DNA of 64,000 nt, from assembly GCF_000801105.2 (NCBI RefSeq), contig NC_079514.1:27242227-27306226 (forward strand), in the 5' to 3' direction. Position numbers and translations under genes: made by a program. Below the pieces are notes generated by a model. It was not told the DNA's origin. It searched no databases and saw only the letters and a program-made list of their open reading frames with translations. Origin of the DNA: Raphanus sativus. Taxonomy: Eukaryota; Streptophyta; Magnoliopsida; Brassicales; Brassicaceae. Positions 57,509-62,694 of the stretch are shown in pieces. The stretch's first letter is position 1. Every line of letters begins with the position of its first letter.

Positions 57509-58483
57509 TGATAGAACCAAAATCGGGATCACTCTTTCGGTAAGGTTGATATGGACTCTGATCCGAAAGGATAGAGAACTGGTGGGATGAATGGTGACAC
57601 AATGGGATGCGAAAAGGCCAATGATACTACCAGACTTCAAATGTTGCCGGATGTGACGCATCGGTCCAACAAAGGAAGGATCGAGACTTGGAGATAACCT
57701 CACCAAGACACTAGAAATGTTCTTGACAAAGAACAGAGAATAAAAACTCAAAAAGAAGAAGAAAATTCGTTGATAGCATTGCAATGACAAAGAGTTACAT
57801 TTTATAGTACTTTGAGTCAAAGAGAAATAAAAGAAAATGATGAAAACAATACATAGAAAATGCAAACTTGACCAGATCTGGTCAAGGCACGAAAATTGAG
57901 TTTGACTGGCCTTGAACCCTTCAAATTCTTCTGTCCAGGTTCAATGAACCTTGCTGTGTTGATCAAGTTCATCACGGTATGGACCAGGACGCACGAAGGG
58001 CTGTCCGCGGGCTGTTTAGTGAACCTTCATGAACGGATGGCAACTTTTCTTGACCCAAATCTTTAGAGAGCTTAAGAAACATTATTTTGGAGAAGTTAGA
58101 AGCATCGATCATCATGAAATCATCAAAGTGGTCGGAAAGGTCGTGATCAGCATGATCCGGGTGATGATCACGATGATCCGGGTGATGATCACGATGATCT
58201 GGGTGTTGATCATGATGATCACGATGATCATGGATTCTGGATCGACTGTTGGCCTTAGAATGATGAATGGGTCGAGAAAGAAGTGATGTGGGTCGATCAA
58301 TTCCATCGTCTGGACGTGGATACGGCCTAAGGTCCTTCCGGTGCACGTGGGTCGATCCGGTACACGGCTCGGTCTGTCTGTCTGGTACGGCCGGATGGAT
58401 GAACCTCGGCTGAACTGATCTGGACGTCCTGAACACCATGCTGAGCTGGTTCCATGTACTGATCCTTGGGCCGGGGTCTATCA
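57509..58483 (-). repeat. CRM-derivative 3' LTR (975 bp)
   Basis: Starts TGATAGACCCC (58483), ends TTTTGGTTCTATCA (57509), 6-bp terminal inverted repeat TGATAG/CTATCA. TATA box TATAAAAT at 57806-57799. A 21-bp repeat (GATCCGGGTGATGATCACGAT) occurs about three times at 58155-58235. It differs from the 5' LTR by a handful of bases. Confidence 0.9.
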
Positions 58484-58992
58484 TTCCCTCCCTCTTCAAA
58501 AGGATTTGTCGTCAAATCGATTGTACCTGTATCAAAAGGAAATAAATCAGATTCAGAGGAATTAAAGTTCAAAGAAAAATCAGTGAATGAAAAGTTTGGA
58601 CAGAAACTTCCTTGGAGTTTAGAAGTCCTTTTCATCAAGTAAGTCCAAGTCCTTTGGCATCCATCATTGCTTGCTCTCCTTAGAAACTGATGATGCTTAT
58701 CCTGTTCATCCAAAACAACTAGAGAAACCACATCAAATCTGACAAAGAAATAATCAAAGGGTTTCTCTATCCTTAAGACATCAAAAACAGGATCCAAGCT
58801 CTTAGGATAATCATCAAGCACGTGGGCAAGCATCAAGCAAGTAAACTGAGTGCCAAAAATCAGTTTATCAAATTCAAAAGTCAGGCCAAGGTGTGAAACT
58901 GCTAGGAAAAGAATGAGATAATGCCAAATTTGTAAAATTCTCATCATGAACGAAATCAAAAGAATTCTTTGGCCTAAGCAATTTCGGTTCAT
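58484..58992 (-). pseudogene. C-terminal continuation of the CRM-derivative ORF, frameshifted
   Basis: In another frame than the 780-codon ORF, this reads T-F-E-F-D-K-L, D-D-Y-P-K-S-L-D-P-V-F-D-V-L, then F-N-S-S-E-S-D-L-F-P-F and N-P-F-E-E-G-G-N-D at the polypurine tract, the same words that end CRM pol. It continues into the 3' LTR as T-D-R-A-V-Y-R-I-D-P until a one-base deletion near 58335. A single indel near 58880-58920 probably separates it from the main ORF. The last purines (58495-58484, GAGGGAGGGAA) are the polypurine tract. Confidence 0.6.
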
Positions 58993-61216: not shown

Positions 61217-61717
61217 CTTAACCTGAAAATCTCAACACAAAAGTTAGATAAAAAATCTCACACTCTCAAGTGTTTGATCCTCACCCACACAAGTGTTTTC
61301 TCTCAGATTTTATGGTGATCACACAAGGTTTATACTCAAAGTTCTAAGAGAACAGATCAAAGAATCCCAATGGGCAAATCCAAGCAAGATCAAAGGTTTA
61401 AGATAGAAAGATAAGAGATTGTGATTTGGGAACCCGCTTTAACCAACTCAAAGGCCGGATTTCTCCTCGGCCAGCAGGCTTTCTCTTCCACCACCAATCC
61501 ACAAATCAAACTTTGAAACTCCTTTTTTTTTATACTATTTTTCCTTTTTTTTTTAAATCGTAGATCTCTTTTTTTTTTTTTCTCTTTTTTTTTTAATGGT
61601 GGATGGTAATGAGTGGCCCGGGTTCAAGAAAGGTAGAAGAAGAAGTGTTTAAAGAAAATGGAAGATGAGAAAAATGGATAGAAATAGAGTTACCGGAAGA
61701 GTGGCTCTGATACCACT
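61217..61717 (-). promoter_or_regulatory. CRM-derivative leader and primer-binding site
   Basis: The primer site TGGTATCAGAGCCA is at 61716-61703. The leader contains A runs on its sense strand (61515-61600) and the 'agcctgctggccgaggagaaatccggcc' block shared with the CRM leader (50310-50340). No ORF. Confidence 0.75.
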
Positions 61718-62694
61718 TGATAGAACCAAAATCGGGATCACTCTTTCGGTAAGGTTGATATGGACTCTGATCCGAAAGGATAGAGAACTGGTGGGATGAA
61801 TGGTGACACAATGGGATGCGGAAAGGCCCAATGATACTACCAGACTTCAAATGTTGCCGGATGTGACGCACCGGTCCAACAAAGGAAGGATCGAGACTTG
61901 GAGATAACCTCACCAAGACACTAGAAATGTTCTTGACAAAGAACAGAGAGTAAAAACTCAAAAAGAAGAAGAAAATTCGTTGATAGCATTGCAATGACAA
62001 AGAGTTACATTTTATAGTACTTTGAGTCAAAGAGAAATAAAAGAAAATGATGAAAACAATACATAGAAAATGCAAACTTGACCAGATCTGGTCAAGGCAC
62101 GAAAATTGAGTTTGACTGGCCTTGAACCCTTCAAATTCTTCTGTCCAGGTTCAATGAACCTTGCTGTGTTGATCAAGTTCATCACGGTATGGACCAGGAC
62201 GCACGAAGGGCTGTCCGCGGGCTGTTTAGTGAACCTTCATGAACGGATGGCAACTTTTCTTGACCCAAATCTTTAGAGAGCTTAAGAAACATTATTTTGG
62301 AGAAGTTAGAAGCATCGATCATCATGAAATCATCAAAGTGGTCGGAAAGGTCGTGATCAGCATGATCCGGGTGATGATCACGATGATCCGGGTGATGATC
62401 ACGATGATCCGGGTGTTGATCATGATGATCACGATGATCATGGATTCTGGATCGACTGTTGGCCTTAGAATGATGAATGGGTCGAGAAAGAAGTGATGTG
62501 GGTCGATCAATTCCATCGTCTGGACGTGGATACGGCCTAAGGTCCTTCCCGGTGCACGTGGGTCGATCCGGTACACGGCTCGGTCTGTCTGTCTGGTACG
62601 GCCGGATGGATGAACCTCGGCTGAACTGATCTGGACGTCCTGAACTCCATGCTGAGCTGGTTCCATGTACTGATCCTTGGGCCGGGGTCTATCA
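61718..62694 (-). repeat. CRM-derivative 5' LTR (977 bp)
   Basis: Same ends as the 3' LTR; TATA box at 62016-62009; 21-bp repeat array at 62360-62440. Bounded by target copy CGAAG (62695-62699). Confidence 0.9.

Follow-up and report, generated by a model that had tools for sequence, protein, structure and literature searches.

A 64,000-nt stretch of Raphanus sativus DNA (here called the window) holds, at 57509-62694 on the minus strand, a retrotransposon with one long open reading frame (ORF) and no recognisable complete enzyme, and thereby raises the question of what keeps such a frame open. The element has two LTRs, a primer site, a polypurine tract and a CGAAG target-site duplication, the hallmarks of an LTR retrotransposon (Table 1); these limits and features had all been named in the original prediction and are confirmed, as is a partial second copy nearby. 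Its two LTRs differ at 5 of 973 aligned sites, equivalent to an age of about 0.4 My on an alternative clock of 7e-9. At the substitution rate of 1.3e-8 in use in PMC9744471, the copy would be about 0.2 My old.

Table 1. Features of the non-autonomous element and its surroundings, in window coordinates
Feature	Position	Strand	Remarks
5' LTR	61718..62694	-	977 nt; TATAAA at LTR position 679
3' LTR	57509..58483	-	975 nt; ORF tail encoded in its first part in open copies
Target-site duplication CGAAG	57504..57508 and 62695..62699	.	flanks of the element
Primer site, Met-type	61704..61715	-	two bases past the 5' LTR; same as CRM 50061-50072
Noncoding leader	61217..61703	-	served as neutral control
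Polypurine tract and LTR start	58480..58507	-	tract abuts the 3' LTR; identical to CRM 55182-55209
780-codon ORF	58874..61216	-	cut short by a private frameshift shortly before the stop
Acidic linker, GPIFDEE repeat	60545..60610	-	coordinates taken from the translation
First RT palm-like unit	59804..59908	-	ORF residues 437-471; SLDD in place of RT YFDD
Second RT palm/thumb-like unit	59549..59722	-	ORF residues 499-556
Rest of family ORF	58484..58873	-	here in another frame; end similar to CRM integrase C-terminus
Partial second copy	44580..45633	-	LTR and beginning of leader
CRM-type element, likely kind of partner	49035..56209	+	broken frames

A neighbouring element in the window appears to be of CRM type, a label that goes back to the original prediction and to the similarity of its C-terminus. 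Because its LTRs are only 96.6% alike, it is an older insertion than the non-autonomous copy. Both elements have identical primer sites and an identical 28-nt block spanning the polypurine tract and the LTR start, for which shuffled sequences give an expectation of 0. Aligned as DNA, they also match over the LTR and leader (72%), the acidic linker (99 bp, 68.7%, E 7e-4), the reverse transcriptase (RT) segment (81 bp, E 5e-6) and the 3' tail and LTR (71%), these blocks being colinear; the matches in primer site, leader, tract and tail, and the CRM-like character of the linker, had been claimed beforehand and hold. The 28-nt block and the primer site are cis signals that link the element to the CRM-type one, and because the two have them in common, its proposed status as a non-autonomous partner of a Brassicaceae CRM-type chromovirus is supported by sequence. 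The RARA[RK] motif, the form of the CR motif reported for grasses and the sole form sought, was found in 0 of 28 copy ORFs and in none of the CRM pieces of the window, and is present in 1 of 120 listed database relatives. A GC-rich tandem array with a 32/33-base spacing (56246-56831) adjoins the CRM element.

The 780-codon ORF exists, yet it has suffered damage, and the window copy is neither complete nor open. A frameshift just before 58874 terminates it and is absent from all 27 other copies having that site; related ORFs run about 120 codons further, to the polypurine tract and then into the 3' LTR. The original prediction was thus right that the ORF exists, its completeness is not confirmed, and the contrast drawn between an open ORF and broken CRM enzymes nearby falls away, since the window ORF is itself frameshifted and the CRM neighbour is older. 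Copies were sought in the 433-Mb assembly (6413 contigs), where the best 40 of about 700 candidates were scored per search and the short loci L001-L008 were excluded from the copy set; of the 40 places from one such search, 9 were already represented, 20 were added and 11 were left out. The resulting 41 radish loci are the window copy and 40 others, some of them LTR-only or truncated by contig ends. Ten are open from the MFGL start through NPFEEG at the polypurine tract (851-1108 codons), eight of these extending into the 3' LTR with 1034-1108 codons; the other 31, the window copy included, are not open throughout.

Among 182 protein relatives of the ORF at E<=1e-3, 120 were listed, of which all named ones come from Brassica or Raphanus and 42 have at least 900 residues, some being gene models fused to other sequence. 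The long relatives pass the position of the window stop, reach an NPFEE..ND sequence and continue into LTR-encoded sequence. In open copies the tail inside the LTR lies in the same frame as the CRM tail, and two unrelated U3 types are read in that frame. By reading past the polypurine tract these copies show a CRM-clade trait, an ORF C-terminus partly inside the 3' LTR; CRM integrases are described by Neumann et al. 2011 as terminating within the 3' LTR. When L029-L048 are set against the window LTR, many copies keep the U5 side and differ in U3; at least two kinds of U3 continue the ORF without a change of frame. Loci L013 and L014 have the same GGAAG flank and near-identical sequence on two unplaced contigs, and are probably one insertion assembled twice.

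Where does this ORF come from? A Pfam search of the window ORF returned 0 families at E<=1, in keeping with the earlier claim that no complete enzyme is recognisable, and 61 family members gave 12 weak, unrelated matches, none to gag, RT, RNase H or integrase. An RT profile built from 27 sequences was run on 148 proteins of the family and matched 70 of them at E<=1e-3 and, with the limit relaxed to E<=0.1, 104; of the 105 domains below 0.1, 104 begin in profile bin 450-474, where the palm motif and the thumb lie. Control sets of shuffled and of reversed proteins gave no match at E<=0.1 (0/148 each), and a chance likeness to RT is rejected on that ground. Profile-profile comparison of the ORF family with RT gave a probability of 94.9 (E 4.7e-8), and in the window ORF the RT segment consists of two overlapping units (Table 1). 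The impression of decayed palm segments, first gained by eye, is therefore upheld by controlled profile searches. An integrase profile from 59 integrase-bearing proteins matched 28 of the same 148 proteins at E<1e-3 (controls 0), 29 of its 30 domains lying at the C-terminus and one elsewhere. The enzymes needed for transposition are absent from the family in both the Pfam and the profile searches, as in a non-autonomous element.

Judged by these similarities, the ORF is partly pol-derived, with an RT palm/thumb remnant and an integrase C-terminal remnant in CRM order. Only these short parts of pol are recognised, and the remaining bulk is without a detected origin by the same searches, so that the idea of a new ORF made from pol holds in part. 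An ordinary decayed gag-pol, the outcome set against a new ORF at the outset, is rejected, as Pfam gave no gag, RT, RNase H or integrase family and the profile searches, one integrase-profile domain aside, matched only RT palm/thumb and the integrase C-terminus. A PDB sequence search with the ORF gave a best match of only E 0.55, and a search of viral_contigs found no relative. AlphaFold, given 61 sequences, returned a mean pLDDT of 36.8 with 721 of 780 residues under 50; such low confidence fits a disordered product and proves nothing. Between flanks that are alike, the central part of the ORF differs strongly from copy to copy, as in L021 (about residues 280-530) compared with L013, and also in L018 and L025, a pattern like that of the Quinta GAG variants, and this suggests recombination between lineages. 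Two Brassica proteins, P0103 and P0119, carry a further long stretch that runs from MSFGLLINHEEKAARKAQ to an LRTNPIKGGGDD end and has a GPIFDEE linker of its own; it may be another non-autonomous CRM ORF, distinct from the present one.

The many copies make it possible to ask what has been inherited. Of the 41 loci, 39 had ORF matches, and the 37 with more than 1500 aligned bases were aligned as DNA, each change being classed as private to one copy or shared. Changes that arise after insertion are neutral and private and shared ones have gone through copying, so a lack of shared damage means that the frame was protected as the copies arose. Expectations came from placing the same substitutions, in their three-base context, randomly over one real copy. 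In the ORF frame, shared changes comprised 146 synonymous, 361 nonsynonymous and 0 stop changes, against expectations of 119.7, 370.4 and 16.9 (P 4e-8 for stops); private changes comprised 101, 321 and 7, against 95.8, 315.2 and 17.9. Shared stops numbered 17 against 17.4 expected in frame +1 (private 25 against 19.8) and 21 against 17.7 in frame +2 (private 26 against 23.5), the 21 becoming 28 if sites without context are kept. None of the 10 stop columns in the ORF alignment is shared.

Insertions and deletions follow the same pattern. In the ORF, 0 of 30 non-triplet indels and 14 of 20 triplet indels (15 of 20 in another count) are shared, two seemingly shared frameshifts having proved on inspection to be single-copy. 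In the leader (32 copies), 23 of 62 non-triplet and 3 of 18 triplet indels are shared. A Fisher test on the shared indels gives 2.9e-8 for the difference from the ORF; when the A-rich tract is left out, the counts become 16 to 1 and the value 5.7e-8. Removal of 6 near-duplicates from the 37 leaves 0 shared stops against 14.5 expected; among the indels, 0 of 21 frameshifting ones and 11 of 20 whole-codon ones are then shared. At a few duplicated loci changes may instead be shared through segmental duplication, an effect that could only raise the amount of shared damage.

The statistics thus show that selection guards the ORF frame during propagation and removes stops and frameshifts; the original prediction had named selection for a product or very recent spread, and selection on the ORF is supported. 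That young copies are open merely by chance is the least probable of the alternatives, for although the window copy is young and dN/dS is high, the deficit of shared stops is confined to the ORF frame and the triplet indel pattern separates the ORF from the leader. An artefact of copy choice or assembly is also very improbable. The copies are the best-scoring of a larger set of candidates, assembly errors are private by nature, and private frameshifts may include some; yet copies were chosen by similarity and not by openness, most loci not being open throughout, and errors cannot account for shared stops missing in one frame only.

Selection at the level of amino acids is a different matter. 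The ORF sequence is weakly constrained, least so in the C-terminal third, with omega of 0.70-0.80 overall. By maximum likelihood on 27 of the 28 ORF copies, omega is 0.70 for the whole, 0.56 for the middle and about 0.94 for the C-terminal third. Shared changes in the 37 copies give 0.80 (0.68-0.97); without the near-duplicates the values are 0.77 (0.65-0.93) for shared and 0.93 (0.79-1.13) for private changes. Bases 690-1200 stand at 0.57 (p 0.005), and biallelic codons in 28 ORF-filtered copies at 0.74, a weak signal (p 0.02). Pairwise NG86 estimates, which ignore transition bias, have a median of 0.61 (range 0.44-0.88, 303/310 pairs), and over the 136 pairs of 17 copies the mean leader divergence is 0.093, dS 0.105 and dN 0.062. 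Of the combined check on stops and dN/dS laid out in the original prediction, the first half came out in favour of selection, with damage private to single copies, and the second half less so, with dN/dS approaching 1 towards the C-terminus.

The absence of shared damage also bears on where the product acts. A product acting freely in trans would let damaged copies spread and their damage become shared; none is shared, which points to action in cis, and the guarding of the frame is probably in cis, by a mechanism that we infer. For the same reason it is improbable that the ORF encodes a gag-like structural protein for joint use with CRM in trans, a role that has been put forward for Quinta. 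There is a precedent in wheat (PMC11302176), and a long ORF has been retained; however, the gag part of a gag-pol profile (21 proteins) found no family domain below 0.01, and neither gag similarity nor the CCHC knuckle was found in the family, so that an ORF of gag type, and with it membership in a Quinta-type class that encodes GAG, is rejected.

A closer rival is a rapidly changing protein whose main target is its own encoding RNA, for instance by binding that RNA and the CRM particle or integrase through its integrase-like C-terminus and tail. This is a tentative possibility that would accommodate an omega under 1 both for shared changes and for the ORF middle, an integrase remnant retained in frame and the lack of inherited damage, but it sits poorly with an omega close to 1 over the C-terminal third, with interchangeable U3 tails and with the absence of a confident AlphaFold fold. 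Of the 30 ORF frameshifts, 18 fall at or beyond alignment column 1927, towards the 3' end of the ORF; omega there is near 1 and the tail is interchangeable, and on this account selection for reading through the RNA is favoured, with the cis-acting protein a close rival.

The whole explanation preferred here, a CRM-dependent element with a partly pol-derived ORF, its frame guarded in cis and readthrough favoured, has in our estimate an even chance of being right. CRM enzymes would copy and insert the element in trans through the common primer site, polypurine tract and LTR ends, as their identity suggests. The single long ORF is, as its sequence shows, a partial remnant of a CRM gag-pol frame in which RT palm/thumb and the integrase C-terminus were kept, and in open copies its frame continues past the polypurine tract into the 3' LTR. 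Stops and frameshifts are purged along it during propagation, on the statistics above, while amino acids are loosely held, and, as no damage is seen to pass to other copies, the ORF is probably required in cis. Near end-to-end reading would then, most likely, make the RNA fit for propagation, the benefit arising from a short 3' UTR and less nonsense-mediated decay, from a coupling of translation to packaging, or both, and the middle of the protein may contribute a weakly constrained function. More doubtful is the stronger reading that the ORF is kept in cis mainly for its openness and not its content, some 1000 codons of near-neutral sequence with unrelated U3 tails that stay clear of inherited stops and frameshifts and whose full-length translation would protect the RNA or qualify it for copying.

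Several observations count against the readthrough explanation. Protein-level selection is present, in the shared omega, in the ORF middle and in the 690-1200 segment alike. Plants also have elements that lack an ORF altogether and yet can reach high numbers, so openness of a frame is not generally required. Locus L016, on a small contig, has identical LTRs (0 differences in 1038 sites) and an ORF broken by a 727-nt deletion and frameshifts; it may be a recent insertion of a broken copy, which would speak against a strict need, or an assembly effect. Finally, many copies have a second open frame of 151 codons within the LTR, where one non-triplet indel is shared.

Non-autonomous CRM partners are known from wheat, oat and hop, and by analogy the closest kin of the radish element are Quinta and Beth of grasses. 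RLG_Beth, the partner of RLG_Ava in oat, likewise shares LTR parts, primer site and polypurine tract with its CRM partner, and the radish element resembles it in having a large protein of unknown function, no enzymes and autonomous-CRM cis signals, a likeness of description and not of homology; Beth is a grass element, and the part of PMC13270711 consulted mentions neither pol pieces in its ORF nor a frame-conservation test. RLG_Quinta and RLG_Cereba of wheat form the same type of pair, with one strongly variable coding segment between alike flanks, but Quinta encodes GAG plus DUF1 in the account drawn on (PMC11302176), whereas the radish ORF has RT and integrase remnants and no detected gag. 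The hop elements, as described in the relevant part of PMC12371157, also lack RT, RNase H and integrase and fall into primer-site groups common with autonomous CRMs, although enzyme loss and not a new ORF is described there. Non-autonomous Athila elements of Arabidopsis, again from Brassicaceae and without pol, have ORFs under purifying selection, but these are Gag/Env ORFs under strong negative selection in another lineage, to judge from the sections of PMC2410132 used. Wheat RLG_Sabrina variants are non-autonomous with unique coding segments; theirs are short proteins replacing gag-pro, and the text consulted (PMC9744471) does not describe them as CRM. In the open-licence literature searched, no paper was recognised as describing the radish ORF family.

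Taken together, what is unusual here is the selection signature. With many radish copies, the persistence of long ORFs in elements without enzymes, Beth and Quinta among them, becomes a question that can be counted: frame-breaking changes are not seen inherited, and amino-acid changes are inherited almost freely. This contrast separates the need for a particular protein from the need for an open frame, and it likewise tells cis from trans action. The family also offers an example of a gag-less ORF that appears to have formed partly out of pol scraps.
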